From NCBI RefSeq assembly GCF_030811095.1, contig NZ_JAUSQL010000001.1, positions 372,001 to 436,000 on the forward strand: 64,000 nt of DNA, in the 5' to 3' direction. The notes beneath the pieces were generated by a model that had not been told where the DNA came from, made no database searches, and was given only the letters and a program-made list of their open reading frames with translations. This DNA comes from Trueperella abortisuis (lineage in GTDB: Bacteria > Actinomycetota > Actinomycetes > Actinomycetales > Actinomycetaceae). The position numbers and the translations under genes were made by a program. Of this stretch, positions 29,853 to 59,458 are shown one piece after another (positions within the stretch are counted from its first letter, which is position 1; every line of letters begins with the position of its first letter).

Positions 29853-29927
29853 GTTGCTAACTGGTGAGTCTGGTGGTTTTGCTTGGGAATTCCGGCCTTT
29901 TCGGGCTTAGATTCACCAGTTAGCAAC
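29853..29927. repeat. 75-bp palindromic repeat, unit 1
   Basis: Ends GTTGCTAACTGGTGA / TCACCAGTTAGCAAC are perfect 15-bp inverted repeats. The interior contains GGAATTCCGG and TTTTCGGGCTTAGA. First of three tandem units after ptsI. Confidence 0.9.
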
Positions 29928-29968
29928 GGGGAGGATTGGGCCGGGGTTGTCCGCCGGGGGGGGCTGGT

Positions 29969-30043
29969 GTTGCTAACTGGTGAGTCTGGTGGTTTTGGTT
30001 CGGAATTCCGGCCTTTTCTGGCTCAGATTCACCAGTTAGCAAC
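29969..30043. repeat. 75-bp palindromic repeat, unit 2
   Basis: Same 15-bp ends as unit 1. It starts 116 bp after unit 1; the 41-bp spacer (GGGGAGGATTGGGCCGGGGT...) resembles the next spacer. Confidence 0.9.
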
Positions 30044-30082
30044 GGGGAGGATTGGGCCGGGGTTTTCCGCCTGGGGGCTGGT

Positions 30083-30157
30083 GTTGTTAACTGGTGAGTC
30101 TGGTGGTTTTGGTTCGGAATTCCGGCCTTTTCGGGCTCAGATTCACCAGTTAGCCGC
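30083..30157. repeat. 75-bp palindromic repeat, unit 3
   Basis: Starts GTTGTTAACTGGTGA and ends TCACCAGTTAGCCGC, so the outermost bases have decayed. It starts 114 bp after unit 2. Confidence 0.85.
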
Positions 30158-30355
30158 GCCAGGCAGGGATCCGGCGCGACGGAGGAATTACTTCGGAAAG
30201 TATCTGTAATGGGCCGCGGCTTCGCACGGACAATCTCCTAATCGAGCTACTGACGTGGGCTTGGCTGTCTCAGCTGCACCATCGACCAGCCGGCAAGTAC
30301 GGTATAGTGCGTAGGCAACTAATCTTGGAATGCATGAGAGCGATTGAGTTGTCAG

Positions 30356-32119
30356 ATGAACGAGTTTAGGAACTACCCAGATTGGCTGTGGGCCCTGCGC
30401 TACGGTTGGCAGGCGTCGCCGGCTTTTGCCACGGCGTCCACGATTGCTCTTCTCTGTGTCGCTCTCGTTCCAGCTGTTAACGTTTTGTTAATTCGGCAGC
30501 TCTCAAGCTCTCTAGCACATTCAGATGGCGCGGTCGCATTGATCATTTTAACTGGCGTTGTATTTGGCGCCGGAGGAGCCTTTCAACAAGTTGCCAACAC
30601 TCTGTCGCGGGTCAATGCGATGAAGGTAAACACGTTCGCTTCAGACCACTTTGATTCTGTGCTCGCGCGTAGGTCAGCAAACTCTTACGCTTCAGAATCG
30701 TTTATGGAGAAACTCAGGAAAGCGCGTCAATGTACCGTTGAAGGGCACGTTTCATCTCAGTTTCAAGCGACGATCAATATCCTCACCGCGACGATGACGG
30801 CTTCTACTTTGGCTCTGACGTTGTGCGACTTGAGTGAGCGTGCAGCAATGATCAGCGTCTTGGCTCCCATACCTACTGTGGTTGCCTATGCGTGGTACGG
30901 CAGGCAAGAGTCCCGCCTTTGGCCCGATGCCGCGGAGAAGAGCCGACGTTCTGTGTATTTTCAGGATCAGATTTCATATCAGAGCACGGGAAGCGAATTG
31001 GCTAATCTCCGAGCATCATCTTTTATTGCTTCTCGGTCTCAAGAGATGAGGGGTCTTTATCGAAGAATACGGGAGAAGCTTGAAGGGTTGGCTGTCGTAT
31101 CCGACGCTATGTCCGGTCTTGCCACAACGATTCTATTCTGCTTAGCCCTGATCTTTCTTTATAGGGATTCAGCTCAGGATGTTGGAGCGGTGTTTGCGGG
31201 CATCGTAGGTCTCATGAGCGGAATCGGAGCGATGGCAGGGATCGGCTATCAAGTTGGTGAGCTTATTATCTCCGTTCCAGCAAATCGGCATTTCCGGGAT
31301 TTTCTGCGCACGGAAGATGATCACCTGCCCGAGTTAGATATTGAATCCGTCCAGAAATTCTGTGCTAGCGATGTGACGGTGAGATATGGAGATGTTGTAG
31401 CTGTCCAGTTGGCCAATCTTGCCGCTGTCCAGGGCGCCTTAGTGGCAATCGTTGGAGAAAATGGCTCGGGTAAGACTTCCTTGATTCGCGCGATGATGGG
31501 CACACAGCCCGAGGTTTCGGGTCGTTTGAAAATTGGCGAACTGAGCGTCGATCTCTCGTCTGGAGCTTTTCGTTATCCTTACGCCGTTATTCATCAAGAT
31601 TACGGGCATTATGAGCTGACCGTACGAGAGTTTTTGACGATGGGTTTGAATGGGGAGGAAATATCGGAATCTCAGATAGTCGAAGCGTTGCGCTTCGCAG
31701 AGGCATACTCTTTTGTTTCAGAGCTTGCCGAAGGAACGCGGACTCTATTGGGTGCGCAATGGGGTGGCGTTAACCTCTCTGGCGGTCAATGGCAGAGATT
31801 GACTATCGCACGTGCGTTTCTCTCGAATGCACCTGTGTGGTTTCTTGACGAGCCTACGAGTGCAATTGATGCCCCCACAGAAGAGTTGATTTTTGAGAAA
31901 TTCTCAAGAGAGGCTACAAGAAGGATCATCATCCTAACGACGCACCGAGTCTCGACTCTGCGGTCAGCAGGGCGCATCTATGTGATGCAGGACGGGGCGA
32001 TTGTCGAAGAGGGGGCGTTCGGAGAACTCCTGTCGCGTGGGGGCGAGTTTAATCGAATGTTTCACTCCCAGTTGGAGAATGTGGCGGATTTAAACTCGGG
32101 CACGATCTTGAGGGATTAG
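30356..32119 (+). CDS. ABC exporter, fused permease and ATPase (peptide/lantibiotic-exporter type)
   Basis: About 587 residues. The N-terminal half has up to six membrane segments (TASTIALLCVALVPAVNVLL, VALIILTGVVFGAGG, LATTILFCLALIFLY). The ATPase has Walker A VGENGSGKTSL, signature NLSGGQWQRL, Walker B VWFLDEPTSAID and the H-loop TTHR. There is no N-terminal peptidase domain. The overall plan recalls NisT-like bacteriocin exporters. Base composition is clearly lower in GC than the neighbourhood, indicating transfer. ATG 30356 was chosen; a TTG 12 bp upstream is possible. A TATAGT -10 lies at 30303-30308. Confidence 0.85.
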   Translation: MNEFRNYPDWLWALRYGWQASPAFATASTIALLCVALVPAVNVLLIRQLSSSLAHSDGAVALIILTGVVFGAGGAFQQVANTLSRVNAMKVNTFASDHFDSVLARRSANSYASESFMEKLRKARQCTVEGHVSSQFQATINILTATMTASTLALTLCDLSERAAMISVLAPIPTVVAYAWYGRQESRLWPDAAEKSRRSVYFQDQISYQSTGSELANLRASSFIASRSQEMRGLYRRIREKLEGLAVVSDAMSGLATTILFCLALIFLYRDSAQDVGAVFAGIVGLMSGIGAMAGIGYQVGELIISVPANRHFRDFLRTEDDHLPELDIESVQKFCASDVTVRYGDVVAVQLANLAAVQGALVAIVGENGSGKTSLIRAMMGTQPEVSGRLKIGELSVDLSSGAFRYPYAVIHQDYGHYELTVREFLTMGLNGEEISESQIVEALRFAEAYSFVSELAEGTRTLLGAQWGGVNLSGGQWQRLTIARAFLSNAPVWFLDEPTSAIDAPTEELIFEKFSREATRRIIILTTHRVSTLRSAGRIYVMQDGAIVEEGAFGELLSRGGEFNRMFHSQLENVADLNSGTILRD

Positions 32120-32166
32120 TGTCGAAGTTGAATCGGCCAACCTCACTCTCATCTAGGGGGCTGGCC

Positions 32167-32205
32167 ATGAAGTCTGTCATTTGTGCACCGCCAGCTTGCG
32201 TCTAA
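32167..32205 (+). other. 12-codon ORF with two cysteines
   Basis: MKSVICAPPACV, preceded by AGGGGGCTGGCC, in the 182-bp gap between the ABC exporter and the disrupted membrane gene. It is too short for any statistical support; listed because a CAPPAC peptide beside a peptide-type exporter could be a substrate. Confidence 0.15.
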
Positions 32206-32445
32206 TGTGGTGCGAGGCCGCGCGCGTAAAATATGGCAATGGACACTACTGCAAGATCGAAGTCCTCTGCGCAGCTATCGGGCGGTGCTGTCGCCCTCGG
32301 GTGTTAGGAACGTGCTTTTTGAAGCAGGGTGGTGACGATCGTGAAGCGGTGTGGTGACGATCGTGAAGCACTTTCGGTGGGCTGATAACTATTTCTACTA
32401 GCACGTGACAATCCGGTTGCGTGCTTGTTAGAAAGGACGTCAGCC

Positions 32446-34080
32446 GTGACTGATTACCGGTTGATTATCAAGCTCCTGCTTCAGGGGCTCTCGTATCGGC
32501 AGATACAACAACGCTGTGGTGCTGCTCAGGCCACGATTGCCAAAGCGCGCAAAGCCATTGATTCCCATGGCATCACCAGTGAACTTTTAGAGTCGTTAGA
32601 CGATTCGGCGATTACTGATCTCATTGGTGATGGTCGACTCGTAGTCGCTGATGACTTCGTTGGTATCGATTTCGATGTTGTGATCAAAGCTCGTACCGGC
32701 AGGAACAAGACTCCACTGCGAGTGCTGTGGTCGACCTATCTTGACCAACCAGCACCACGTGGTCTGAAGTTCTATAGCTATGAGCGCTTCCGCCAGCTGG
32801 TGGCTGCCCATGTTGCCACCCAAGGCGTGACCGCACTGATTGTGCACCAGCCGGGCCATACCATGCAGGTGGATTGGGCGGGGTCGACCATGGCAGTTGT
32901 TGATCCGATTACGGCTAAACGCAGCAAGATCCATATCTTTGTTGCTTCACTGCCGTATTCAGGAATGGTCTTTGCCCATGGCTTCATTGATGAAAAACAA
33001 CCCTCGTGGCTGGAAGGGCACCGCTTGGCCTTCGAGTATTTCGGTGGCGTTACTGAGGTGGTTGTTCCTGATAATGCGTCTACGGCATCGAATCAGATTG
33101 CCAAAGGTGAACGCGCACGACGAGTCAACGCGAAGTATGAGGAATTTCTCGAGCACTACAACACTGCTGCTCTTCCAACTAATCCTGTTCGCCCACGTGA
33201 AAAAGGCAATGTGGAATCTGGAGTCAAGATTGTAACCAACTGGGTGATTCGCAAACTTGCCGATGTGGTCTTTGCCAGCCTTGACGACCTTAATGACGCG
33301 GTTGCCGGACAGGTTGAGGCGATTAATCATCGCCGCCCGTTTCGCAATCAGCAACGTAGCCGCCAGGATATCTTCGAAGAACTCGAATCTGACGAACTAG
33401 GTAATCTTCCTGCAACAGGGTGGGTAGATACCGTGTGGAAGAAGTCGAAAGTCACTCCTGACTGGCATATCACGATCAATACCGTGAAATACTCGGTGCC
33501 TTACCAGCTGGTGGGACGAAGTGTTGATGTGCGTATCCGTGGGCAGATCCTTGATGTCTTTGCCGATGGCCAAGCTCAGGCTCGTCACCAGGTCAGTGTC
33601 CAACGCGGTGCCTATGTCACCGATGTTGAACACGCTCCGCCGGGGATGGCCCAGGCTAGGAACCTATGGACACCGTCGTACTTTGTGACCCAAGCATCCC
33701 GGATTGGGCCGTATACCCGGCAAGCTGTTGAAGCGTTGTTGGCATCGAAAAAGATTACAGCCCAAGGCTTTCAACCAGCCCGCAACATCATCAAGCTAGG
33801 TAAAGCTACAGAGAATAAACTAATTCTCGAGCAAGCATGCCAGCGCCTTCTAGGAGATGAAGGCCACCGCCAACGAGCTATTAGCTACACCGCGGTCAAG
33901 AACATGATGGCAGTCATCCGCCATGAACAATCCACACGGCCAACCGCCCCGCCCACGCGGGAATCTGCACCAGCAACTCCATCACAGCCAGCACCGTCAT
34001 CGCGTTCCCAATCACGCGGCATGCTCGGCGGGCGTGAGCAATTCTCACTGAGTGCTTTGATGAAAGAAGGAGACAACTAA
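32446..34080 (+). CDS. istA: IS21-family transposase IstA
   Basis: A 544-residue DDE transposase. The N-terminal helix-turn-helix is LLQGLSYRQIQQRCGAAQATI. The catalytic core has QVDWAG, VVPDNAST and REKGNVESG, giving the D, D and E. A Mu-type C-terminal beta-barrel follows (NTVKYSVPYQLVGRSVDVRI). GTG 32446 has GAAAGGA upstream; a TTG at 32425 is less likely. Its TAA overlaps the istB ATG. Confidence 0.93.
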   Translation: MTDYRLIIKLLLQGLSYRQIQQRCGAAQATIAKARKAIDSHGITSELLESLDDSAITDLIGDGRLVVADDFVGIDFDVVIKARTGRNKTPLRVLWSTYLDQPAPRGLKFYSYERFRQLVAAHVATQGVTALIVHQPGHTMQVDWAGSTMAVVDPITAKRSKIHIFVASLPYSGMVFAHGFIDEKQPSWLEGHRLAFEYFGGVTEVVVPDNASTASNQIAKGERARRVNAKYEEFLEHYNTAALPTNPVRPREKGNVESGVKIVTNWVIRKLADVVFASLDDLNDAVAGQVEAINHRRPFRNQQRSRQDIFEELESDELGNLPATGWVDTVWKKSKVTPDWHITINTVKYSVPYQLVGRSVDVRIRGQILDVFADGQAQARHQVSVQRGAYVTDVEHAPPGMAQARNLWTPSYFVTQASRIGPYTRQAVEALLASKKITAQGFQPARNIIKLGKATENKLILEQACQRLLGDEGHRQRAISYTAVKNMMAVIRHEQSTRPTAPPTRESAPATPSQPAPSSRSQSRGMLGGREQFSLSALMKEGDN

Positions 34081-34847
34081 TGACTTTTTCTACCGCACCA
34101 CGTCAGCATCTAGACGACACGTGGATGGAAACCTTCACCAAGCTACGCATGACTGCCTTTGGCCAGACCGTTATCAGTATGGCCAATGACAGTGCCTTTG
34201 ATGAGTGGACGTTTTCAGACAAGATCATCTTCGCTGTAGAAAAAGAGGTTGCAGCTCGAGCAGAGCGACGATTTGCAAAACTGCTCAAGGCATCAATGAC
34301 ACCCCTGCCCGATGCTTGTGCTGCTGATATCCGTCACACACCAAAGCGCAACCTCACCCGTGAGTTAACTAGCCGGCTAGCGCATTGTCAATGGATAGAA
34401 CACGCCAGCAACGTCGTTATCCTGGGCAAATCATCAGTCGGAAAGACCTATCTAGCCTGCGCTCTCTTACACGAAGCATGTAAGCGGGACTATTCAGCCA
34501 AGTTCTTCCGAACCGCAGACCTAGCCGACCAACTGGCCGTACTCGACCGCAGCGATCCCGCACGGTTGAAATTCATCAACCAGATAGTTGGCTGTGACCT
34601 GCTCGTCCTCGATGACTTTCTCACCACTCCAATTAGTGGTGAAACCGCCAACGAGCTGTTCAATCTTCTAGCAGCACGAGAAGGCAGAGGATCGACCATG
34701 GTCACTTCCCAATTCGCCCCAGAAGACTGGTACGAATCAATGCCTGATCGAGTCGTGGCTGAATCCCTACTCAACCGCCTTGTCGGCGGGGCAGAAATCG
34801 TCAACGTCGACGGACCGAACATGAGGCTGGCACCAACAGTGTCCTAG
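34080..34847 (+). CDS. istB: IS21-family transposition helper ATPase IstB
   Basis: A 255-residue DnaC-like AAA+ ATPase that directs IstA to its target. Walker A is GKSSVGKTYLA, Walker B LLVLDDFLT, and the sensor region TMVTSQFAPEDWYE. Length and position are normal for istB. Confidence 0.93.
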   Translation: MTFSTAPRQHLDDTWMETFTKLRMTAFGQTVISMANDSAFDEWTFSDKIIFAVEKEVAARAERRFAKLLKASMTPLPDACAADIRHTPKRNLTRELTSRLAHCQWIEHASNVVILGKSSVGKTYLACALLHEACKRDYSAKFFRTADLADQLAVLDRSDPARLKFINQIVGCDLLVLDDFLTTPISGETANELFNLLAAREGRGSTMVTSQFAPEDWYESMPDRVVAESLLNRLVGGAEIVNVDGPNMRLAPTVS

Positions 34848-35340
34848 TCCTCAGCAATAACTAAGCGCGTGGGTGACAACCGCTTCACAATCGTCACCCA
34901 CGCGCTTCACGATGCTCACCATCGCGCTTCACGATCGTCACCACACCGCTTCATTTTCCACGCTCGCAACACCTCGGGTCGTTCTTCGTCAGCATCGCAT
35001 TCGTCGTCGTTCCCGCCCTTTACATGTGGCTCAACCGGACACAGTTTCCCTCCCCGTTCCCACACATTGGGGCCTGGACTCCAACCCGAATAGCTGGTCC
35101 TCATGTCCCGCCGCCCTCGGAATGGATGTTGGCCTCGTTGCCCTCACGTCTGCCCTGTTCTTAGGAATCGGGTATGCCACGCGCATGTTTGAAGTGTTCG
35201 CTCCACTCGCGCGCCACCTGCCAACGGATGGCTGCCTATGCGGTGGATGCGCAAACCGCGTCTGACGCGCGTGCTGCTGTCGAGCAGTTGGCTCACCCCA
35301 GGATGAGAGGGCTGTTGTAGCGGCGCTGCGGCGCTCTGGT

Positions 35341-35415
35341 GTTGCTAACTGGTGAGTCTGGTGGTTTTGCTTGGGAATTCCGGCCTTTTCGGGCTCAGAT
35401 TCACCAGTTATCAAC
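35341..35415. repeat. 75-bp palindromic repeat, unit 4
   Basis: GTTGCTAACTGGTGA at the left end; right end TCACCAGTTATCAAC with one change. Nearly identical to unit 1. Confidence 0.9.
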
Positions 35416-35454
35416 GGGGAGGATTGGGCCGGGGTTTTCCGTCTGGGGGCTGGT

Positions 35455-35529
35455 GTTGTTAACTGGTGAGTCTGGTGGTTTTGCTTGGGAATTCCGGCCT
35501 TTTCGGGCTCAGATTCACCAGTTAACCGC
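35455..35529. repeat. 75-bp palindromic repeat, unit 5
   Basis: Starts GTTGTTAACTGGTGA, 114 bp after unit 4. Counterpart of unit 3 in the left array. Confidence 0.85.
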
Positions 35530-35630
35530 GCCAGGCAGGGATCCGGCACCTGCAGCCGGGACCCTTGCGCGGCCGCCCGCGCCCTGGCCCGCAACATCCA
35601 GCTCCACACTGCCTGAACTATGCTAGAGCC

Positions 35631-36263
35631 ATGGACGATAAGTGGCTGAGCTGGGCAACCGAGATTCAGGCAATCGCGCAGGCGGGCCTGACATACGGCC
35701 AGGACGCCTTTGACCGCGAGCGCTATTTGCGCCTTCGGCAGATCGCAGCACAAATTATCGCCGAGCACACCGACCTGCCGGTGGAGAAGGTCGTCAACCT
35801 CTTCTGCAACGAGGAGGGTTACCAGACACCGAAACTGGATACCCGCGCGGTCATCATCCGCGACCAGGCCACCGCGGGTGACCAGGCCATTTTGCTCGTG
35901 CGTGAGAACGACGGCCGATGGGCCATGCCCGGTGGGTGGGCCGACATCGGACTGACGCTTCGCCAAAACGTGGAAAAGGAAACGAGGGAGGAGGCGGGCC
36001 TCGACGTCGTCGCCACCCGGGTCCTCGCGATCCATAACCACGCCACCCACAACCGTCCCCCATTGCCGTGGAGCATCTGGAAGATTTTTGTCGCCTGCCA
36101 GGTGCGTGGCGGGGAGTTTGTGGAGAACGTGGAGACGACGGCGTCGGGATACTTTACCCTCGATGAGCTTCCCCCGCTCGCCGAGGGTAAGACTACGCGC
36201 GAGCAGATTGAGCTGTGCCTCGCGCTCGCGGCGGATGACACCCGGCCGGTCGAGTTCGACTAG
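35631..36263 (+). CDS. NUDIX hydrolase with N-terminal NUDIX_N domain
   Basis: A 210-residue protein. Residues 1-65 (WATEIQAIAQAGLTYG, FDRERYLRLRQIAAQI) match the helical NUDIX_N extension. The NUDIX domain has PGGWADIGLTLRQNVEKE followed by TREEAGLDV, the variant box of the YjhB group where the first Glu is replaced. Substrate is probably a nucleoside diphosphate derivative. ATG 35631 is the natural start. Without the island it would follow ptsI and the repeat array directly. Confidence 0.88.
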   Translation: MDDKWLSWATEIQAIAQAGLTYGQDAFDRERYLRLRQIAAQIIAEHTDLPVEKVVNLFCNEEGYQTPKLDTRAVIIRDQATAGDQAILLVRENDGRWAMPGGWADIGLTLRQNVEKETREEAGLDVVATRVLAIHNHATHNRPPLPWSIWKIFVACQVRGGEFVENVETTASGYFTLDELPPLAEGKTTREQIELCLALAADDTRPVEFD

Positions 36264-36315
36264 CCCTGCCCGAACGCCCTGCGCGTACAATTAGCGAAAC
36301 GAACGGAGGTGGCGC

Positions 36316-37119
36316 ATGGGCGGCATCGACATTGAACACCTGACCCGCGACTATGGTTCGGGGCGCGGCGTGTTCGACATTACGTTTTCGGTGGCTCCCG
36401 GGGAGGTTTTCGGGTTCCTCGGCCCCAACGGTGCGGGCAAGACCACCACCATCCGGCATCTGCTCGGCTTTCTTCGCGCTCGCGCCGGATCCGTGGCCAT
36501 CGACGGCAAGAACCCGTGGGCAAATGCGAGCGTGTTGGACGACGTCGGCTACGTCCCGGGCGAACTCGCGCTTCTCGACATGAAAGCTGGGGCCTACCTG
36601 CATTTCCTTGAGCGATACCGGTCCCGAACGGCTGAGCGTAAAGATGAACTCGTGGCGTTGTTCGAGCTTCCCCTCGACCTGCCGATTCGGAAAATGTCCA
36701 AGGGAATGAAGCAGAAGGTGGGGATCGTTGCGGCTTTCATGTTCTCCCCGCGGATCCTCATCCTCGACGAGCCCACTTCCGGCCTCGATCCGCTCATGCA
36801 AAACCGTTTCGTCGACCTCGTCGAGGAAGAAAAGCGGCGCGGATGCGCCATCCTCCTCTCCAGCCACATCTTTGACGAGGTGCAGCGCACGGCCGACCGG
36901 ATCGGCATCATCCGCGCCGGGCACATGGTCGCCGTCGACACCGCGGCCGCCCTGCGCGAGCGGCACATGCGCCACTACACCGTCACGCTCGCCAGCCCGG
37001 AAGAAGCCGCCGCCTTCTCCCGGGATTTTGGCGGAAGCTCCGAGGGATGCACGGCCACCGTCTCGGCGTCGCAAAACCTCGAACGGATCTTCCTGGACTA
37101 CTACAAGGAGCAGCGATGA
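36316..37119 (+). CDS. ABC transporter ATP-binding protein (ABC-2 exporter)
   Basis: A 267-residue ATPase: Walker A GPNGAGKTTTI, signature-equivalent KMSKGMKQKVGIVAAF, Walker B ILILDEPTSGLDP, H-loop SSHIFDEV. The C-terminal extension is typical of drug or lipid exporters. GGAGG precedes ATG 36316. It overlaps the permease start as ATGA. Confidence 0.92.
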   Translation: MGGIDIEHLTRDYGSGRGVFDITFSVAPGEVFGFLGPNGAGKTTTIRHLLGFLRARAGSVAIDGKNPWANASVLDDVGYVPGELALLDMKAGAYLHFLERYRSRTAERKDELVALFELPLDLPIRKMSKGMKQKVGIVAAFMFSPRILILDEPTSGLDPLMQNRFVDLVEEEKRRGCAILLSSHIFDEVQRTADRIGIIRAGHMVAVDTAAALRERHMRHYTVTLASPEEAAAFSRDFGGSSEGCTATVSASQNLERIFLDYYKEQR

Positions 37120-37904
37120 ACCTCGCACTCTTTCGCTGGCAGATGCGCAAGTCGCTGCTGATCGGGATCATCTTCGCGGCGATCTTGACGCTCTACGTCA
37201 CCATGATCACCTCCATGTACGACCCGCAATCCATGGCCGCGCTGGTCAAGTTTCGCGACTCCATGCCGCAGGTGATGGCCGCCGTCGGGATGGATAACGC
37301 GCCAACCACCCTGCCCGAGTTCCTCGTGAACTTCCTCTACGGCTTCCTCTTCCTCGTCTTCCCGATGGCTTTCACCCTCATTCGGGCCCACGGCACCATG
37401 GCCAAGTACATCGATTCGGGGGCGTTGGCCACCCTGCTCGCCTCCCCGGTCTCCCGCCGTTCGCTCGCCCTCACCCAATTCGCCGTGGTCATCACAGGCA
37501 CCACGATGTTGCTGGGCTACGTCACGGCCCTGGAAGCCATCGCCGCAACCCGCGTTGACGGCTCGCTCCCGGCCGCCACCCTCCTGACGCTCAACGGCGG
37601 CCTGCTCGTGTTGCATCTGGCCATCGCCGCCTTCTCCTTCTGGTGCTCTGTGGCGGCCAGCGAGGCGAAAACGTCCCTGGCGCTCGGGGCCGGCATCCCC
37701 TCCGCCATGCTCATCTTTCACCTCCTCGCCCAAGCCGGGGAGAAAACGGCGGGCGCCCGCTTCGCCAGCATCTTCACGCTCTTCGACCCACAGGCACTGA
37801 TTGCCGACGGCGGCGGCTGGGGCATCGCCGCGCTCGCAGCTATCGGGGTTGTGTGCCTGGTCGGGGCGATCGTAACCATGGACAGACGCGACTTTAGCCT
37901 ATGA
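37116..37904 (+). CDS. ABC-2 type permease
   Basis: A 262-residue membrane protein with six helices, including SLLIGIIFAAILTLYVTMI and FLYGFLFLVFPMAFTLI. It has the cytoplasmic GALATLLASPVSRRSLALTQ segment common in ABC-2 permeases. It forms an exporter with the preceding ATPase; the substrate is unknown. ATG 37116 has AAGGAG upstream. Confidence 0.88.
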   Translation: MNLALFRWQMRKSLLIGIIFAAILTLYVTMITSMYDPQSMAALVKFRDSMPQVMAAVGMDNAPTTLPEFLVNFLYGFLFLVFPMAFTLIRAHGTMAKYIDSGALATLLASPVSRRSLALTQFAVVITGTTMLLGYVTALEAIAATRVDGSLPAATLLTLNGGLLVLHLAIAAFSFWCSVAASEAKTSLALGAGIPSAMLIFHLLAQAGEKTAGARFASIFTLFDPQALIADGGGWGIAALAAIGVVCLVGAIVTMDRRDFSL

Positions 37905-38040
37905 AAACACGAGCGATAGGAGGACGCGGGCGACGGCGTCGTGAACGGATGCCCGCCAACTGACGTCCTTGACGGACAAAGTTTCATTTATGCTGGCGTG
38001 GAGGGCACGACCTGGAGTAGAATGGCTGCATCCACATTCT

Positions 38041-38067
38041 GGGTGTTACTGCATGGCAGGCATGACC
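38041..38067 (+). promoter_or_regulatory. RAT site upstream of the second PTS locus
   Basis: GGGTGTTACTGC, then ATGGCAGGCATGACC, fits the RAT consensus well. A TAGAAT -10-like element lies at 38018-38023 with no good -35. No strong terminator hairpin with a T-run is visible between the RAT and the GTG at 38099, so the mechanism may differ from the first operon. Confidence 0.7.
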
Positions 38068-38098
38068 GGGCTATTTTGTCGCTCACTGAGGAGCTTGT

Positions 38099-38926: not shown

Positions 38927-38946
38927 CGCAAAGAAAGGACATCCTC

Positions 38947-40539: not shown

Positions 40540-40541
40540 AC

Positions 40542-41027: not shown

Positions 41028-41082
41028 GACTGGTCGGGTGCAGATCCGTGAGGGTCTGCACCCGGCCCACGAAAGGAAACAT

Positions 41083-42067: not shown

Positions 42068-42092
42068 AGTTAGGTCAGCTGCTCGCCGGCGG

Positions 42093-50257: not shown

Positions 50258-50270
50258 TCGCGGACGCGAG

Positions 50271-50930: not shown

Positions 50931-51624
50931 GGCTACCTCCCATCCGGCAGGCAAGTTGAAGCATGAGGATCACCGAGGCGGCCACCTGGACGCGCGGCGC
51001 GATCCCCACAGGCAACCCGGTCGCGATGGCCACGAGTTGGACGGCCATCGCCACAATCGCCACCGCCGACACCGCGCGCATCGCCCACCCACCGGCGAGC
51101 AAGGCGCCCGCCGCGACCAGGACGAGCCCGAGCCCGGCCAGCGACGAGGTCAGCGTGTGTGCCAGGTGGCTGAAGGACACGCCGGCCTCGAGCTGGGCGC
51201 GACACGAGGCCTCAGATTCGGCGCAGTCCATGGGGAAACCGGCGTCCAGGACGGTCATCACGCCCGCGAGCGCCATCCCGCCCGGCACCAGCGCCCGCCT
51301 CACACGCTCCGGCACCGCCTCGACCAGCCGCCCCATCGCGCCCTGGAGTCCGCCACCGTCCGCGCCGGGCGGGAGGAAACCGGGCAGGAGGGCGCCGGCC
51401 GCGCCACGGCGTCGTGCCCCCCACAAGTAGAGCCCGACCGCGGCGAAGGCCACCCCCGCCACGGCGTCCATCGAACGCACCAACGTGGAGGAGGCCTGAT
51501 CCACCGCCGACAGCTCGGATAGATAGGACAGGGTCGGGGAGAGTGGGTAGCCCAAAAGGGCCTCCGTCAGCACGCTGGCATACGACAGCGCACCGAGGGT
51601 TAAGACAATCGCGGCAACTAACAC
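50890..51624 (-). CDS. DUF998 membrane protein
   Basis: A 244-residue protein with about six hydrophobic helices (MLVAAIVLTLGALSYASVLTE, LVPGGMALAGVMTVLDAGF, SLAGLGLVLVAAGALLAGGW). The family markers SYLSELSAVDQ and FPMDCAESE with FSHLAHT are present. Function of the family is unknown. Confidence 0.8.
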   Translation of the reverse strand: MLVAAIVLTLGALSYASVLTEALLGYPLSPTLSYLSELSAVDQASSTLVRSMDAVAGVAFAAVGLYLWGARRRGAAGALLPGFLPPGADGGGLQGAMGRLVEAVPERVRRALVPGGMALAGVMTVLDAGFPMDCAESEASCRAQLEAGVSFSHLAHTLTSSLAGLGLVLVAAGALLAGGWAMRAVSAVAIVAMAVQLVAIATGLPVGIAPRVQVAASVILMLQLACRMGGSHVGDTARTGSRSA

Positions 51625-51659
51625 ATGTAGAATCTAGCGCGTCGCGCGGCCCACCTTCG

Positions 51660-52691
51660 TCAGCCTACCGGATGAAGCGAGGGCACGATCAGCGAAAACA
51701 GGTCCTTCGGGTCCTCGGGTTCGGCCACCAGCTCGATGTCGTCGTAGTAGCCGGTGCCGGCCACGGCGTCGCGCGTGTAGCGCAGCGCCGAGAAGTCGCT
51801 CATCGCGAATCCCACGGAGTCGAACACCGTGATCTCCTCGGCCGACGTCCGGCCCGGCGCCGTGCCCGCCAGCACGTCGGCGAATTCGGTGACCGGGAAG
51901 TCGGGAGCCATCTGCTGGATCTCGCCCTCGATGCGGGTCTGCGGGGTGAACTCCACGAACACCGAGGAGCGGGTGAGGATCTTCGCCTCCAGCTCCGTCT
52001 TGCCCGGGCAGTCCCCGCCGATCGCGTTGACGTGAACCCCCGGGCGCACCTGCGCATCCGACAGGATGGTGTTGTTGGCCTTGTCGGCGGTGCAGACGGT
52101 GATGACGTCGGCCCCGGCCACGGCGTCGTCGACGCTGTCGCACACCGTGATCGCGAAGCCGAGCGGGGCGAGGTTGCGGCGGAACTTCTCCATGGCGTGC
52201 GGGTCGATGTCGAAGATGCGCAGTTCCTCAAGGCCGAGCGCGGCGCGCATGCCGAGCGCCTGGAACTCAGACTGGGAGCCGGAGCCGATGAGCGCGTGAA
52301 CCTTCGAGTCCGGGCGGGCCAGCGTGCGGGCGACGAGCGCGGAGCAGGCCGCCGTGCGCAGGGCGGTGAGCAGGGTCATTTCGGCGAGGAAGGTGGGGTA
52401 GCCATTGTCGACGTCGGCGAGCACGCCGAACGCCGTGACCGTCTGGAAGCCGCGCGCCGGGTTGGAGGGGTGCCCGTTGACGTACTTGAAGGAGTACTCC
52501 ACCGAGTTCGAGGTGGGCATCAGCTCGATCACGCCGATCGGGGAGTGGCTGGCCACGCGCGGAATTTTCTCAAACGAGTTCCAGTCGCGAAAGTCGTGGT
52601 CGAGGTAGTCCATCATCCCGGAGATGATGGCTTCCACGCCGGTGTCGAAGATCCAGCGCGACATATTCTTCACGTCAACGAAGGTGGTCAT
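51660..52691 (-). CDS. Ornithine cyclodeaminase/mu-crystallin family enzyme
   Basis: A 343-residue NAD-dependent enzyme. The dinucleotide loop is LIGSGSQSEFQALGM followed by FDIDPHAMEKF; ADVITVCTADKANNTIL and HVNAIGGDCPGKTEL follow the family. ATG 52691 (MTTFVDVKNMSRWIF) is preceded by GAAAGGA. It could convert ornithine to proline or act on another amino acid; siderophore-linked members also exist, and an iron importer lies next door, but no linkage is proved. Confidence 0.85.
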   Translation of the reverse strand: MTTFVDVKNMSRWIFDTGVEAIISGMMDYLDHDFRDWNSFEKIPRVASHSPIGVIELMPTSNSVEYSFKYVNGHPSNPARGFQTVTAFGVLADVDNGYPTFLAEMTLLTALRTAACSALVARTLARPDSKVHALIGSGSQSEFQALGMRAALGLEELRIFDIDPHAMEKFRRNLAPLGFAITVCDSVDDAVAGADVITVCTADKANNTILSDAQVRPGVHVNAIGGDCPGKTELEAKILTRSSVFVEFTPQTRIEGEIQQMAPDFPVTEFADVLAGTAPGRTSAEEITVFDSVGFAMSDFSALRYTRDAVAGTGYYDDIELVAEPEDPKDLFSLIVPSLHPVG

Positions 52692-53012
52692 GGGCGATCC
52701 TTTCGCGTTTTTCATCACATCGTAGCGCACCGCCCGGGCGCGAGCGAGCGGAGGGCGCGGGCGTGTGTGCGCGGGGGTGTGGCCGAGGCGGTCTTGCCTT
52801 GCCGCGCGAGGCCGTGGCGCGGCTTTTCGGGTGTGTCCCACGACGCCGATCGCGGGCATTCCGGGCGGCCGCGGCCGAGGATATCGGGCGGGTTGCGTTA
52901 CCGGATGCCACGTAGATGTCGCTAAGATGTTCGGCTCTGCGGTCGACGCGGCGGCGGCGATTCCTTATGCTTGGAAAGTTGGGAAGACGCGGCCAAATCC
53001 GGGGAGGTGAGG

Positions 53013-54011
53013 ATGAGCAAGCGGAGCTTTCTCGCCGGATGCATTGTCCTGGGTGTCGCTATGGTTTTCGCCGTCGCGATCGGGCCCATCCTGACCCCGC
53101 CAGGGGAGGTCGCCGCCGCCCTCGGCCGCGCGCTGACCGGTGCCTCGGTCCCCGCCTCCGACGCCCTCATCACCCACATCCGCCTCCCGCGCGTGCTCAT
53201 GGCGGCGCTCGTGGGCGGCGCGCTCGCGGTGGCCGGCGCGGCCATGCAGGCCGTGTTCCGCAATCCGCTGGCCGAGCCCGGCATCACCGGGGTGGGGACG
53301 GGAGCGGCCACGGTCGCCGTCATCGTCATCGTATCGGGGGCATTCCTGGCACACCCGATCCTCCTGCCGCTTGGCGCCTTCCTCGGGGCGCTCGCGGCGA
53401 CTGCTCTGGTCCAGGTGGCGGGTGCGCGCGGCCCACGCGCCTCGACGGCCACGATCTTGCTGGTTGGCGTGGCGATGAACTCCTTCCTCGGCGCGATCAT
53501 CGCCGCCGCCATCGCCAACGCTCCCGACGCGGAGAACGCCCGCTCCGCGATCTTCTGGCTCAACGGCGACCTCGCGGGCCGCACCATGTCCGACGTCGCG
53601 CTCGTGGCCGGGCCCGTGGTGATCGGCGCGCTCGGGGTGGGCTTGTACGCACGCGAACTCAACATGCTCTCGCTGGGTGCCTCCACCGCGCAGAGCTCCG
53701 GTGTGGCCGTGCGGCGGGTGTCCCACACGGTGCTCGCCTTCGCGGCGCTGGCCACCGCCGGGGCCGTGGCCACCACCGGGGTGATCTCCTTCGTCGGACT
53801 GGTGGTCCCGCACCTGATCCGGCTGGTGAGGGGAGAGAACTACCGGATGCTCATCCCCGCATCTTTCATCGTCGGCGCGATCTTCCTCATCGTGGCCGAC
53901 ACCGCGGCGCGCATGGTCTTCAAGCCGGTGGTGCTGCAGACCGGCGTCGTGACGGCTCTGGTGGGCGCGCCGATGCTCCTCTTCCTCGTGCTCCGGCAGG
54001 ATCGCCGATGA
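53013..54011 (+). CDS. Iron/siderophore ABC transporter permease (FecCD family)
   Basis: A 332-residue permease with ~10 helices. The signatures [37 protein letters not shown] and [16 protein letters not shown] are typical of BtuC/FecD/HmuU proteins. GGGGAGGTGAGG precedes ATG 53013. It overlaps the ATPase gene by 4 bp. Only one permease gene is present, so a homodimer is expected. Confidence 0.92.
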
Positions 54012-54811
54012 GCGCGGCGGGCACGGTGAGCGCGCTGAGTCTGCGCGGGTTGCGCGTGAGCTACGGCGAGCGGCAGGTGGTGGACATCGATCAGCTCGAG
54101 CTTGACGCCGGGCAGATCGTGGGGCTCATCGGCCCGAACGGGGCGGGCAAGTCCACTCTGGTCAAGGCGATCCTCGGGCTGGTGCCCGCCGCCGGAGAGG
54201 TCGAGGTCGGCGGGCAGAACCTCGCCCGGCTGCCGGTGCGCCAGCGCGCCGCGCGCGTGGCCTACCTCGCCCAAGACTCCCTTCGTGGCTCGGCCTTCAC
54301 CGGGCGCGAGGTCGTGGAAATGGGCCGGTATGCGGCCCTGCCGCGCTTCGGTTCGCTCAGTGCCGACGACGACGCCCGCGTCAGCGCCGCTCTCGCGGCC
54401 ACCGGCGCGGGAGCCTGGGCCGAGCGCCCCACCCGGCAGACCTCCGGCGGGGAACGCCAGCTGACCGGCCTGGCCCGCGCCCTCGCGCAAGACGCCCCGC
54501 TCCTTCTGCTCGACGAGCCCGTCTCCGCCCTCGACCTCTCTCACGCCGTGGCCGTGCTCAAGGTGCTACGCCCGTGGGTGGCGGCTGACCGCCGTCGGAC
54601 CGTCGTCGCCGTGCTACACGATCTGACGCTGTCGGCGCGATTCTGCGACGAGCTCGTCCTCCTCCAGCCTCGGCCAGGCGGGGCGCGGATCCGCGCCCGC
54701 GGCGCACCCGGCGAGGTGCTCAGCCCGGAGGTGATCGAGGAGGTCTACGGCGCGCCCGTCGACGTCCGGCTCTCCGAGGTGACGGGCACGCCCGTCGTAA
54801 CCCCGCTCTAA
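54008..54811 (+). CDS. Iron/siderophore ABC transporter ATPase
   Basis: A 267-residue FecE-like ATPase: Walker [12 protein letters not shown], signature [15 protein letters not shown], Walker [15 protein letters not shown]-loop VLHDLTL. It is translationally coupled to the permease. Confidence 0.92.
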
Positions 54812-54879
54812 CCCCCCTCTCCGCCGCAGCGCACGCAGCTTTTCCATCTGTCATGCAAAACACACAAGAAAGGTTCACC

Positions 54880-55851
54880 ATGATGAAGAAACTCCTGGCC
54901 GCCGCGGCCGTCCTCGCGCTCGCCGCGTGTTCCCAGGCGCCGGCAGGGTCCGGGGCGAGCGAGACCGCGTCGTCGGCAGCCACTCCGAGCGCGTCGGCGA
55001 CCGCCACGCCGAGTGCGACGCCCGCCGACGAGGTCAGCGCCTACCATCACATCGTCGCCACCAGCCCCGAGACCAGCGACATGGCGCTCATGCTCGCCGG
55101 CCCGGAGAACGTGGCCGTCATCTCCGCCTCGTCGCTGAGCCCGATGGGGCAAAACCCGGAGCTTGCGCGGCAGGTCCCCGAGCGGCTCGAGACGGGCATC
55201 AACCCCGACGCCGAACAGATCCTCTCCTACAACCCGGACCTGGTGGTGATGACGACCCGCTTCGATTCGGAGACCGGTGTGGTCCAGCAGCTGCGCGACT
55301 CCGGTGTGGAGGTGCTCGACTTCGACGGCCACGAGTTCGACACCCCCGAACTCTACGCGGAGGCCGTCAAGAAGATGGGCGAGAAGCTGGGTATGCCGGC
55401 CACCGCGGCTGGGCTGACCAACGAGTTCCTCGGGCGGATCGCGCAGGTGGATGCGGACCTGGCGAAGATCGAGAACAAGAAGAGCCCGGCCGTCCTCGAA
55501 CTCATCGCGCGCGGCGGCAAGGTCATGGCCATGGGGGCCAACAACGTGGTGCCCGGGCTGGCGATTCGCGCCGGGGCCACCGACGCCGGCGCGGCGGCGG
55601 GCATCACCCGCACCATGCCGATCGACGCTGAAACGCTCCTGCTGGCCAACCCCGATATCCTCTTCGTGGAGGATTTCCGCGGATCTGGACTCGAGCCTTT
55701 CCAGGATCTTCTCGACAACCCGGCGCTGGCGGACGTGCCGGCGATCAAGAACGGGCGCGTGGTGCTGCTGCCCATGAATGAGGCATCCTCCACGGCCGGC
55801 CTGCAGATGTACAAGGGCTACGCCACGATCGCCGCCGAAGTGCAGAAGTAG
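54880..55851 (+). CDS. Iron/siderophore/heme-binding lipoprotein (periplasmic-binding type)
   Basis: A 323-residue lipoprotein. The signal peptide ends in the lipobox LAAC (MMKKLLAAAAVLALAAC). A Ser/Ala/Thr linker leads to a class III binding protein: VISASSLSPMGQNPEL, ILSYNPDLVVMTTR, SSTAGLQMYKGY. HmuT/IsdE-like heme binding or siderophore binding are both possible. It completes the permease-ATPase-receptor operon. ATG 54880 and 54883 are both near an AAGAAAGG site. Confidence 0.88.
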   Translation: MMKKLLAAAAVLALAACSQAPAGSGASETASSAATPSASATATPSATPADEVSAYHHIVATSPETSDMALMLAGPENVAVISASSLSPMGQNPELARQVPERLETGINPDAEQILSYNPDLVVMTTRFDSETGVVQQLRDSGVEVLDFDGHEFDTPELYAEAVKKMGEKLGMPATAAGLTNEFLGRIAQVDADLAKIENKKSPAVLELIARGGKVMAMGANNVVPGLAIRAGATDAGAAAGITRTMPIDAETLLLANPDILFVEDFRGSGLEPFQDLLDNPALADVPAIKNGRVVLLPMNEASSTAGLQMYKGYATIAAEVQK

Positions 55852-55868
55852 GAAGCAGAAGTAAGGGG

Positions 55869-57125
55869 TCAGTCCTCCTCGGGGAGCACCTTCTCCTCGG
55901 GGATGTTGGGCAGCTCGGTGAGCTCCTCGTCGCCCGTGTGCAGGGTGCGGTAGACCGACCAAGCGATCGCCATGAGCGGGATCGCGATGACGGCGCCCAC
56001 CAGGCCCCCGGCGAATCCTCCAGCCGCCACGCCGATCGCCACCACGATCGGGTGGAGCGCCACCTGGCGTCCCATGATGAGCGGCTGGAGGAGGTGGCCC
56101 TCGATCTGCCCGATGCCGGCGATGCCGATGCCGACGATGATGAACTTGACCAGGCCTCCCGTGGCGAGGGCGACTATCATCGCCACCACCATCGCGGCCG
56201 GCGCGCCCACCAGCGGGATGAAGGTGCCGATCAGCACGAGCACCGCGAGCGGGGCCGACAGCGGCACGCCCACGATCGACAGGAAGATGAAAGCCAGGAT
56301 GCCGTTGATCACCGAGATGATCACGGTTCCGCGGGCGTAGCCGGAGAAGGAGACCCAGCCGGCGGTGGCGCCCAGGTGGGTGCGGTAGCGGTTACGGGCC
56401 GGAAGAAGGTTGAGGAACCACAGCCACATCTGCGGGCCCTGGGCGAGGAAGAAGAAGGTGACGAACACCGACAGCGCCAGGATCGTCATGACCATCGCGA
56501 AGCTGGAGGCGTTGGCCATGACTGTCTGCGCGATCGTGCCGGCGTTTGACCGCACCCAGTCCGTTCCGCTGGACACGGCGTTGGAGATAGCGTCGGAGAG
56601 GTCCTGGCGGGAGAGGTGCCAGGGCAGGTCATCGCGAGTGAAGAAGTCAAGGATGGAGTTGACGCCATCTTGGAACTGGCTGGCGAGCGAGTCCCATTCG
56701 TTGGCCACCGAGTAGACGACGTAGCTGAGCATTCCGCCGAACACGATGAATCCGAAGAGCATGCCGAGGGCGGTGGCGGCCGTGCGGGGCATGAACTTCG
56801 ACAGCCACGTCACGATCGGGTAGAGCACCGCGGTGAGAACGAAGGAGAGGAAGACCCCCAAAAAGACCTCCGTCACCGCGCCCAGGAGCCACGTGATCGC
56901 GACAACGACGATCCCCAGCCCGATCAGCATCCAGGACCCGAGCCCGAATTTGGCTAGCCAGTGCGGGATGCCGAGCGCCGATTGCATGCCCGGTGGGGCC
57001 GCCACCATGCCGCCCCACGTGCCCGCCGACTTCTGCTCGGCGGCCTCGGCGCCCTGCGCGTCTGCTTCGGCGCCCTGCGCGTCCGCCGCCGGCGTGTTTT
57101 CTCGCTTGAAAAGCCAACTCATCAT
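55869..57125 (-). CDS. AI-2E family transporter
   Basis: A 418-residue membrane protein of the PerM/AI-2E-exporter superfamily. Paired N-terminal helices (WMLIGLGIVVVAITWLLGAV, VFLGVFLSFVLTAVLYPIV) precede a soluble loop. The C-terminal helices carry GFAGGLVGAVIAIPLMAI-type motifs. The N-terminus has a short duplicated AQGAEADAQGAEA sequence. Substrate unknown; AI-2 or a Na+/H+ role are reported for relatives. It converges with the binding-protein gene. Confidence 0.88.
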   Translation of the reverse strand: MMSWLFKRENTPAADAQGAEADAQGAEAAEQKSAGTWGGMVAAPPGMQSALGIPHWLAKFGLGSWMLIGLGIVVVAITWLLGAVTEVFLGVFLSFVLTAVLYPIVTWLSKFMPRTAATALGMLFGFIVFGGMLSYVVYSVANEWDSLASQFQDGVNSILDFFTRDDLPWHLSRQDLSDAISNAVSSGTDWVRSNAGTIAQTVMANASSFAMVMTILALSVFVTFFFLAQGPQMWLWFLNLLPARNRYRTHLGATAGWVSFSGYARGTVIISVINGILAFIFLSIVGVPLSAPLAVLVLIGTFIPLVGAPAAMVVAMIVALATGGLVKFIIVGIGIAGIGQIEGHLLQPLIMGRQVALHPIVVAIGVAAGGFAGGLVGAVIAIPLMAIAWSVYRTLHTGDEELTELPNIPEEKVLPEED

Positions 57126-57276
57126 GCTTCGAGCCTACTCGGTTGAGCGAGCGGGAACGAACCCGGCCCAACTGGGCGCTCCCCGGTCCTGCGTCCCGCT
57201 GCGTGTCGTGCCGCCCGTGCGCGGCATCAACACCGCGCTCCCCGCGCCCGCGTTCCACCGTGCCCCGCCCGCCCGC

Positions 57277-57351
57277 GTCGTTAACTGGTGAATCTGAGAG
57301 GTTTCGTTGCCGAAAACGAGGTTTCTAGGCGCAGGCTCACGAGTTAGCTAC
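57277..57351. repeat. 75-bp palindromic repeat, unit 8 (diverged single copy)
   Basis: GTCGTTAACTGGTGA at the left, GCTCACGAGTTAGCTAC at the right, again exactly 75 bp, between the AI-2E transporter and the BCCT gene. The interior differs most from the others, including AGGTTTCGTTGCCGAAAACG. Confidence 0.7.
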
Positions 57352-57436
57352 GTGTCGTGACGCCCTGCGGGAGACATATCGCATAATCTGCGCCCACCAG
57401 TGGCATATATACGGAATATACTCAAACAATGGGAGT

Positions 57437-59254
57437 ATGGACGAGAAGAATAAGGACGTAAAACAGAGCGAACCGCTCGACGCTAACTCATCAGCAACCT
57501 CGGAGCTTGCCGCGCTCCTCTCGGTTGAGCAAGAGATCAACGCGGCCGACATCCAAGAAGAACCCGTCGAACTCGCCGCAGAGACGGCTGACGGTTCGAT
57601 CAGCTGGGCGGTGGTAGCGCCCGCGATGGCACTGGTGGTGGCGGTGGTCGCCTGGGGCCTGGGCGCCCCGGACAACTTCGAAAGCGCCGCCTCCGCCATG
57701 TTCACCTGGGTTTTGGACAACCTGGGCTGGGCGTTCGTCTTGTTCTCGACGGTATTCGTGGCGTTCGTCGTCGTGATCGCCGCCTCGAAGTTCGGCTCGA
57801 TCCGGCTGGGGGCCTCCAACGAGCAACCAGAGTTTTCGAACACGTCCTGGATCGCGATGATGTTCGCGGCCGGCATGGGCATCGGCCTGATGTTCTACGG
57901 CGCCTCGGAGCCGCTGGCCTTCTACCGCGACGGCGTTCCCGCACACCAGGCCCATGAGGTCGGCACCGCGATGGCGAGCGCCATGTTCCACTGGACCCTG
58001 CACCCGTGGGCGATGTACGCCATCGTCGGACTGGCGATCGCGTACTCGACCTACCGCATCGGGCGCCCGCAACTCATCTCGGCCGCCTTCACCCCGCTCA
58101 TCGGTGAGGCTCGCGCCAACGGGGCGCTCGGCAAGATCATCGACTCCCTGTCCATCTTCGCCACCGTGTTCGGCACCGCCTGCTCACTCGGGCTCGGCGC
58201 CCTCCAGATCCGCGCGGGCCTGACCGCGGCCGGAATCGTGGACAACCCCGGCACGGGGCTCATCATCTCGATCGTGTCCGTGCTGACCCTGGCCTTCCTG
58301 CTCTCGGCGATGTCCGGGGTGGGGCGGGGCATCCGATACCTGTCGAACGCGAACATGGTCTTCGCCGCGATCCTCGCGCTCGCCGTGTTCGTGCTCGGCC
58401 CGACGATCGCGCAGCTCAACCTCCTGCCCGGCTCTGTCGGCGCCTATCTGTCACAGTTCTTCGAGATGGCTGGGCGCACCGCCCAATCCGCCAACGGCAC
58501 CGCCGGGCAGTGGCTCTCCGGCTGGACGATCTTCTACTGGGCGTGGTGGATTTCCTGGTCACCGTTCGTGGGCATGTTCATCGCGAGGATTTCGCGCGGA
58601 CGCACCATTCGCGAGTTCTGCATGGGCGTCATGTTCATTCCTGCCGGCCTGTCCACCGTGTGGTTCGCGATCTTTGGCGGCACCGCGATCTCGATGGAGC
58701 TTGCCGGCGATTCGATCTACGGAGACGGCTCGGTCGAGTCCCAGCTGTTCAACCTGCTGCACTCGCTGCCGGGCGGCTTCGCCCTCGGCCTCATTGCGGT
58801 GCTGCTGCTAGCCACCTTCTTTATCACGTCCGCGGATTCCGCCTCCACCGTGATGGCCTCGATCTCCCAGGGCGGGCGGGCCACGCCGTCGCCGTGGCTG
58901 TCGGGAGTGTGGGGCCTGCTGACCGCAGCCATCGGGCTGACGTTGCTGGTTTCTGGCGGCGACGGCGCGCTGGGCAACATCCAGTCCGTGACGATCGTGG
59001 CGGCCACCCCGTTCCTTTTCGTGGTGGTAGCGCTCATGTTTGCGCTGGTCAAGGACCTGCGCAATGATGTCGTCTACCTCGATCAGCGCTCGCAGGAGGC
59101 CTTCCAGCGCCAGCTGGCGGTCGAGCGGCGCCATCGGCGTGAGCGCGAGGAGGAGAAGAGGCTCAACCGGGCCTTCCGCCAGGCGATGGGCAGGCGTGGC
59201 CCCCGGGAGCTCCGGGATCCCTGGGAGCACCGGGACTCCAGCAAAACCGAGTAG
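57437..59254 (+). CDS. BCCT-family betaine/choline/carnitine transporter
   Basis: A 605-residue transporter with twelve helices. The BCCT signature region [19 protein letters not shown] with [10 protein letters not shown] is exact, and [15 protein letters not shown] marks helix 3. An acidic ~50-residue N-terminus and an Arg-rich C-terminal tail ([12 protein letters not shown]) resemble the osmosensing tails of BetP-type carriers. Role: uptake of compatible solutes. ATG 57437 has GGGAG upstream. Confidence 0.92.
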
Positions 59255-59268
59255 CCCGCGCTGATCTT

Positions 59269-59343
59269 GTGGCTAACTGGTGAGTATGGTGGGTTTCGTC
59301 GTGAAATCCGGGGTTTTCGGGCTCAGATTCACCAGTTAGCTAC
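59269..59343. repeat. 75-bp palindromic repeat, unit 6
   Basis: GTGGCTAACTGGTGA and TCACCAGTTAGCTAC, with a GTTTCGTCGTGAAATCCGG interior, between bcct and the methyltransferase. Confidence 0.9.
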
Positions 59344-59383
59344 GGCACCCGCGGAGCCGTGGGTTCTGGCTCCTGACCCCCTT

Positions 59384-59458
59384 GTGGCTAACTGGTGAGT
59401 TTGGTGGGTTTCGTCGTGAAATCCGGGGTTTTCGGGCTCAGATTCACCAGTTAGCCAC
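59384..59458. repeat. 75-bp palindromic repeat, unit 7
   Basis: GTGGCTAACTGGTGA and TCACCAGTTAGCCAC are perfect 15-bp ends. It starts 115 bp after unit 6 and is nearly identical to it. Confidence 0.9.

Follow-up and report, generated by a model that had tools for sequence, protein, structure and literature searches.

Phased palindromic repeats in Trueperella abortisuis and related Actinomycetaceae: candidate protein-binding sites of the origin domain

The repeat units and their anatomy

The subject of this analysis is a window of 64,000 nucleotides from Trueperella abortisuis (Actinomycetota; Actinomycetaceae), namely positions 372,001 to 436,000 of the forward strand of contig NZ_JAUSQL010000001.1 (assembly GCF_030811095.1), which contains eight copies of a short imperfect palindrome near the ptsI gene and around a gene at 57437-59254. 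An earlier note on this DNA had described eight units of 75 bp, and a sequence check placed the start of all eight exactly where it had put them. Three form an array at ptsI (29853-29927, 29969-30043 and 30083-30157, the second starting 116 bp after the first and the third 114 bp after the second), and two more lie within a repeated copy of the ptsI-end segment (35341-35415 and, 114 bp beyond it, 35455-35529). A lone unit (57277-57351) is found upstream of the gene 57437-59254, which the earlier note labels as a BCCT gene; the last two units follow this gene, one directly past its stop (59269-59343) and the other 115 bp beyond the first (59384-59458). All eight are of the kind that we call type A and lie on the + strand; the single orientation that had been claimed holds for them but not for the genome as a whole, where 24 copies are on the + and nine on the - strand. 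None of the eight was flagged as intragenic by heuristic gene calls, in keeping with the claim that they lie outside genes, and mechanical open reading frames (ORFs) overlap some of them.

The ends previously described are exact TAACTGGTGA...TCACCAGTTA arms in seven of the eight units, the exception being the unit at 57277, whose right arm reads TCACGAGTTA. In the 59269 unit, the left arm TAACTGGTGA (59274-59283, + strand), an example of a recognition-like motif, recurs as an inverted copy in the right arm (59329-59338, - strand), and the centre (59294-59317) holds A/T tracts at 59294-59296, 59304-59307 and 59314-59317, about one helical turn apart. A covariance model of the family (see below) extends slightly beyond the 75-bp core, matching 29850-29930 at the first ptsI unit. 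Alignment columns are invariant at 29 positions among the first 21 copies and at 18 among all 32 type A copies, and comprise the arm cores together with parts of the centre.

For most of the site pairs compared, homology ends within a few bases of the unit, and we accordingly dropped the idea of an element larger than 81 bp. Homology extends beyond the unit in the site pairs 401/407, 1457/2364 and 2102/2104, and more weakly between site 77 and either 306 or 142, as well as between site 431 and some others. The loci at 1457567-1457761 and 2364243-2364437 of the genome share 275 bp (78%) beyond the units, including a GGACAGAAACCGG motif, which indicates that a larger segment was copied between both sites.

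Tandem spacing and the duplicated ptsI end

The four tandem steps of the window fall within the period of 114-116 bp given in the earlier note, and the same regularity pervades the genome: all 13 consecutive distances below 1 kb are 114, 115 or 116 bp, equivalent to 10.86-11.05 helical turns. The spacers, such as the 41-bp stretch at 29928-29968 separating the ptsI tandem units, had been called similar and about 40 bp long; this is true of their length (39-41 bp at 13 of 13 tandem steps) but not of their sequence, since most are unrelated between sites. Related spacers are found in the ptsI duplicates and in the 2102/2104 pair, and the 319/2364 pair scores only z 3.6. At some sites (1990, 593 and 431) the spacer visibly mixes the right and left flanks, as in local tandem duplication; however, simple duplication was rejected as the origin of the tandem step because flank mixing alone leaves its constancy unexplained.

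The ptsI 3' end together with its array (from 29713) recurs from 35201 with 242 of 249 bases identical, so that five of the eight window copies are not independent. The two repeats (29713-30175 and 35201-35547) flank about 5 kb of DNA, mostly of 50-56% GC, which carries an ORF for an ABC transporter (30344-32119) and, at 32425-34847, a transposase pair of the IS21 type; repeats with a 22-bp spacing within 32300-34973 are the inverted ends of the IS21-type element. In a second genome of the same species (G001), the ptsI-end flank and one unit are followed directly by the flank that here follows the second array. This arrangement suggests that recombination at the array may have brought the ~5-kb segment in. 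Because G001 is a metagenome assembly, its tandem copy numbers may be collapsed. Elsewhere in our genome (2102245-2104451), two unit pairs that share their left flank lie on either side of a DUF4411 gene and a gene whose product has an IrrE-like peptidase domain, as if the unit pair had been duplicated around the two enclosed genes.

Copy number and searches

The exact arm-gap-arm pattern occurs at 15 places in the 2.45-Mb genome (2,447,956 bp, a single contig), against none for a reversed control. A covariance model built from 21 copies recovered 32 copies at E<1e-7, plus a weak place at 516087 (E 0.014), which is a type B unit by sequence and reaches E 2.6e-13 with a broader second model that had it among its training rows. 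The genome thus has at least 33 copies at 20 sites, a lower bound since 150 candidates were scored per search; the models R2 and R3 were each trained on many of the copies later counted with them. The units are therefore not confined to the sites of the window, and related families are present in other genomes. The genome-wide search bears out the earlier picture of a dispersed intergenic palindromic family with local subtypes; the helical phasing, the concentration near the origin and the existence of lineages with other arms, all described below, are additions to it. As that note had supposed, no match to a named element was found; we found no resident insertion sequence (IS) with these ends, and no description of such a family turned up among the open-licence papers searched for palindromic or extragenic repeats in Trueperella, Actinomyces or Actinomycetaceae.

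Over the whole genome collection, the exact pattern was found in 21 stretches, five of them from Trueperella (four contigs of the metagenome-assembled genome SUG403 and one of T. bernardiae). Among the 16 others, the 15 that were inspected by eye, a set that leaves out one stretch (L047), were discarded as simple GGTGATTGG-type repeats or as having unrelated centres, and four viral contigs with exact arms also have centres that are unrelated by eye. Plasmids searched with types A and E and phages searched with type E gave no match, nor did viral contigs searched with the exact type E pattern.

Helical phasing

The power of A/T steps (AA, TT, AT) at 10.5 bp averages 1.45 over 118 copies, as opposed to 0.23 in dinucleotide shuffles, with no excess at 7, 8 or 13 bp. 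When TA steps were added and periods between 4 and 25 bp compared, the best period was 10.25-11.0 for six of seven sequences: the consensus of types A, B, D and E, and two single sequences from G185 and G004, genomes with weak matches. Measured against 1072 GC-matched windows of the same genome, all 32 own copies lie above the 95th percentile and 31 of them above the 99th. Such phased A/T tracts predict intrinsic curvature of the DNA.

The wider family

Units of the same 81-bp architecture with different arms, which we classify as types A-E, were recovered in T. bernardiae, in another Trueperella (G005) and in a second genus of Actinomycetaceae (g28). T. bernardiae combines type A with type B (CAAA..TCAGGAC arms) and type C (GACAGAA.TCGTGAATAT arms), all of nearly equal length. 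G005 has type D, with GCCAAATCCTGTGA arms; within 2 mismatches, both arms are present at 13 places and one arm alone at a further place. The g28 type is E, with TTACAAACGTCGTCAATC arms. Types A, B and E clearly resemble one another in their centres, and types C and D do so to a lesser degree. A family-level search gave a match at E<=1e-4 in 13 of 213 genomes, and an order-level search with model R3, whose stricter filters lose weak matches, gave E<=1e-5 in six of 396, all Trueperella or g28. The matches in G003, G004, G022, G141 and G185 are few and weak (E 6e-7 to 9e-5) and may be due to chance; sequences from G003, G004 and G185 are included in one of our alignments (A4).

The g28 arms are arrayed as + + - -, at successive distances of 52, 54-55 and 52 bp; four arms are present in 13 of the 16 tabulated arrays and three arms in the other three, the table omitting the incomplete arrays at 1028990 and 1031144 in G155 and a one-arm, weak model match at 575921 in G156. 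The reversed arm pattern has no match in g28. By eye, in each array of the g28 loci L166-L176 the outer arm with its spacer looks like one half of the inner unit, which gives the impression of a unit inserted into a second one.

Place in the chromosome and gene context

The dnaA gene lies at 63 kb in the T. abortisuis genome, and 19 of the 20 sites are within 530 kb of it, the remaining one being at 1054 kb. After merging sites less than 10 kb apart, the dnaA half holds 14 of 15 (p=5e-4), and pooling this genome with G005 and G156 gives 29 of 34 (p=2e-5). Of the 46 distinct places among the T. bernardiae matches listed, 20 are on the dnaA contig, which makes up 16% of that genome (p=9e-6). The one-arm place at 575921 in G156 was left out of the test, as were G003, G004, G022 and G177, where dnaA was also located but hits are few or weak or contigs break; in G004, weak places lie both near dnaA and 789 kb away.

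With heuristic gene calls, 11 of the 20 own sites begin or end at most 70 bp from the 3' end of a predicted gene, and three units, at 134438, 306278 and 2104371, overlap the end of an ORF. A scan of 30 neighbouring proteins found no family common to the sites.

Site history

Sites 77, 431, 1990 and 2320 are common to this species and T. bernardiae; each holds a single unit in T. bernardiae against one or two here, among them the 59269/59384 pair of the window, which has one unit opposite it. At site 319, two type A units stand against one type B unit in T. bernardiae, and at site 2364 two type A units against what is, by eye, a degenerate type C-like sequence. The 57277 unit (genome site 429274) is absent from the T. 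bernardiae site, just as some T. bernardiae units are absent here. Within the species, at one locus G001 has two units 154 bp apart where our genome has one; at the joints, a short GGCGGG match hints at a duplication by microhomology.

A target duplication can be seen neither at 429274 nor at the T. bernardiae sites under comparison, but the divergence of the intergenic DNA there is too great for a firm reading. Outside the units, the genome has no solitary arm within 1 mismatch, and the three with 2 mismatches are as many as chance allows. The Y1_Tnp transposase domain (Pfam PF01797) was found in none of nine Trueperella genomes, as against five of 14 control genomes. Integron attC sites have core boxes of the form RYYYAAC...GTTRRRY, and were considered because of the TAAC...GTTA ends of the units; by eye, the core boxes do not fit and the copies are dispersed, and this candidate was set aside, no search having been aimed at an integrase.

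Are the arms kept as sequence or as a pairing?

Among the 32 type A copies, the arms pair in 85.0% of cells compared with 84.7% in shuffles, double-changed cells number 18 against 17.7, and the covariation score (44 of 500) shows no excess; seven of the 20 arm pairs are invariant within the genome. For the first 21 copies alone, only the number of pair types is above the shuffles (12 of 500). Pairing is thus weakly, if at all, maintained from copy to copy, and the arms are kept mainly as sequence.

Between types, the arms change jointly. Double-changed cells number 124 against 57.0 in shuffles in one alignment, and 149 against 57.9 in shuffles and 27-59 in slid controls in another. Doubly changed pairs and pair types do not exceed the shuffles in the former (203 and 163 of 500) and do so modestly in the latter (27 and 22 of 500). 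Taken together, joint change between types and weak compensation within the genome fit inverted copies of a recognition motif better than a free hairpin.

A proposed role and its rivals

The anatomy, phasing, spacing, copy number and distribution of the units, and their differences at orthologous sites, are direct observations, and with them in view we propose, at a probability of about 0.42, that the units are curved chromosomal protein-binding sites with an architectural role in the origin domain, comparable to bacterial interspersed mosaic elements (BIMEs). They would be chromosomal DNA sites, neither genes nor RNAs, and their putative role is probably that of marking DNA for a protein. Each would be an 81-bp bipartite site, with two inverted, lineage-specific recognition motifs around an asymmetric centre, in which A/T tracts every ~10.5 bp would curve the DNA and bring both arms together. 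Steps close to whole helical turns (114-116 bp, and the outer steps of 52 bp in g28) are what might be expected if bound proteins must align. Most likely, such a role would be architectural: a dedicated DNA-binding protein, or else gyrase, would bind or be loaded at the unit, much as at BIMEs or at the centromere-like ram sites. A broader form of the proposal, in which some Actinomycetaceae possess undescribed centromere-like curved sites of the origin domain, with arms rewritten in each lineage along with their DNA-binding partner while the geometry stays fixed, strikes us as doubtful.

Several observations weigh against the proposed role. Type C is weakly phased (p=0.034, best period 23.25), and a wedge model of curvature gives a modest score, with a mean z of 1.96 and values above 1 in 57% of copies. 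The copies share descent, so that tests over them lack independence. The pair of copies 154 bp apart in G001 is separated by 14.7 turns, and the inner g28 step of 54-55 bp amounts to a non-integer 5.1-5.2 turns. Two of the five measures of covariation within the genome do exceed the shuffles (nine doubly changed pairs against 5.5, 1 of 500; 23 pair types against 18.6, 2 of 500), so that there may be some selection on pairing, and the joint change of arms between types is predicted equally by inverted protein sites and by hairpins. Outside the T. abortisuis genome, the bias to the dnaA half is weak in each genome taken singly (G005 10/13, p=0.05; G156 5/6, p=0.11; G155 4/5, p=0.19), the origin test had no control repeat family, and sites shared by descent do not count independently in it. 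The presence of three arm types together in T. bernardiae means that one protein per genome is no simple explanation. Finally, curvature in solution, protein binding, the identity of the partner, the function and the mode by which copies spread are all inferred from sequence.

The unit might instead be a selfish miniature element akin to repetitive extragenic palindromic (REP) sequences or miniature inverted-repeat transposable elements (MITEs), whose transposase acts from elsewhere in trans or has since been lost, origin bias and phasing being by-products. The discreteness of the unit, at whose ends homology stops in most site pairs, and the presence and absence of units between species would be natural for such an element, as would several arm types per genome, which recall the REP classes and their co-evolving REP-associated tyrosine transposases (RAYTs) as portrayed in excerpts of PMC2817692; CGTC-type REPs without a dedicated transposase are also on record (PMC3733652, in excerpt), and type B arms contain CGTC. 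Yet Y1_Tnp is missing from all nine genomes of the genus, solitary arms within 1 mismatch are lacking, no target duplication is visible at the sites compared, the plasmid searches (types A and E) and the phage search (type E) found nothing, and a MITE needs neither a conserved centre nor a fixed length. On this balance we regard a selfish origin as unlikely; the REP-like character raised in the earlier note stands as an analogy but not as membership of a family with a Y1/RAYT transposase, and its other suggestion, a non-autonomous mobile repeat, is unsupported in the form of a MITE driven by a resident IS. A different protein-binding alternative would make the units strong gyrase sites of the BIME-2 kind, absorbing positive supercoils after genes, with the tandem spacing set by the length of the gyrase wrap. 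Phased A/T content, tandem repetition, origin bias and the closeness of 11 of the 20 sites to gene 3' ends agree with it, and excerpts of the E. coli gyrase study describe a motif with phased 10-bp G/C variation preferring positions downstream of operons (PMC6379681). However, gyrase specificity would not need arms that are near-invariant within a genome and yet differ between lineages, and the 81-bp unit is shorter than the 130-bp vicinity in the same excerpts (PMC6379681); as predicted from sequence, such sites seem to us rather improbable.

A structured RNA or transcription terminator, forming a hairpin at mRNA 3' ends, appears slightly more improbable still. Many units do lie directly past stop codons, and of six window units folded as DNA, five gave stable hairpins at z -5.4 to -7.3. 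The two elevated covariation measures also speak for pairing; they owe a good part of their excess to a single copy, at 124378, which has compensated arms and accounts for several of the double changes. Against this, the 57277 unit folds little better than shuffles (z -0.8), the + strand is the more stable in 19 of 32 own copies and in 9/18 and 15/26 of others, which is no consistent preference although its mean energy is slightly lower (-30.5 vs -28.1), and no U-tail accompanies the units (mean 1.1 and 0.7 T in 10). No terminator was called in 59100-59600, the sole region scanned, and Rfam at gathering score matched nothing but tRNAs in the window and in four loci, the weak matches being far below the cut-off. 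Phasing by the helical turn would not be expected of an RNA. An inner hairpin (TTTCG...CGAAA) was discarded as it is not retained in type D. The structured RNA that the earlier note had allowed for is thus disfavoured.

If the units are protein-binding sites as proposed, they would furnish a natural series in which the recognition sequence has changed from one related bacterium to another at constant geometry, making the co-evolution of a DNA-binding protein and its chromosomal sites testable. They would also serve as markers of the group's origin domain. If merely selfish, they would exemplify REP-like repeats in a genus that lacks a Y1 transposase.

Comparison with known systems

The parS site of plasmid P1 is about 80 bp long, with recognition boxes on both sides of a bend; it is a single plasmid site, and its bend needs IHF. 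The units described here are similar to it in length and in their flanking boxes, but they are dispersed chromosomal copies. MITEs are short, intergenic and non-coding, with inverted ends. In contrast to them, our family has no parent element that we could find, no target duplication was seen, and its length is nearly fixed across two genera.

The ram sites of B. subtilis, which are bound by RacA, are dense near the origin according to excerpts of PMC6593407; unlike these, the site described here is long and bipartite, with arms that differ between related species. In E. coli, intergenic palindromic repeats likewise form arrays as BIMEs, which bind IHF and gyrase, BIME-1 being made of inverted units around an IHF site and BIME-2 of tandem gyrase-binding units (PMC2817692, PMC6379681); gyrase sites there show phased 10-bp G/C variation, favour positions downstream of operons with high transcription and are overrepresented among BIME-2 elements (PMC6379681). 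The same excerpts associate REPs with RAYTs and give usual copy numbers above 100 (PMC2817692), compared with at least 33 here, and REP units are put at 20-40 bp (excerpt of PMC3733652) against 75-81 bp here. REPs have a GTAG or CGTC tag at one end; by eye, some type A copies contain GTAG and type B contains CGTC, in both cases within the paired arm and variable. The palindromic units of a BIME are regularly spaced and alternate in orientation. In the present family, single arms run + - + - at tandem sites, whole units there all face one way, and the arms of g28 run + + - -. Binding of gyrase, IHF or Pol I is a further mark of BIMEs, and what the present units offer in that respect is their sequence phasing. 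Further differences from BIMEs are the absence of a Y1 transposase in the genus, the location of the phased tracts inside the unit itself and the origin bias. In view of the unit length and the missing transposase, we have not filed the family as a member of the REP/RAYT group. By analogy, it would in its working be most like a BIME or an origin-domain site.

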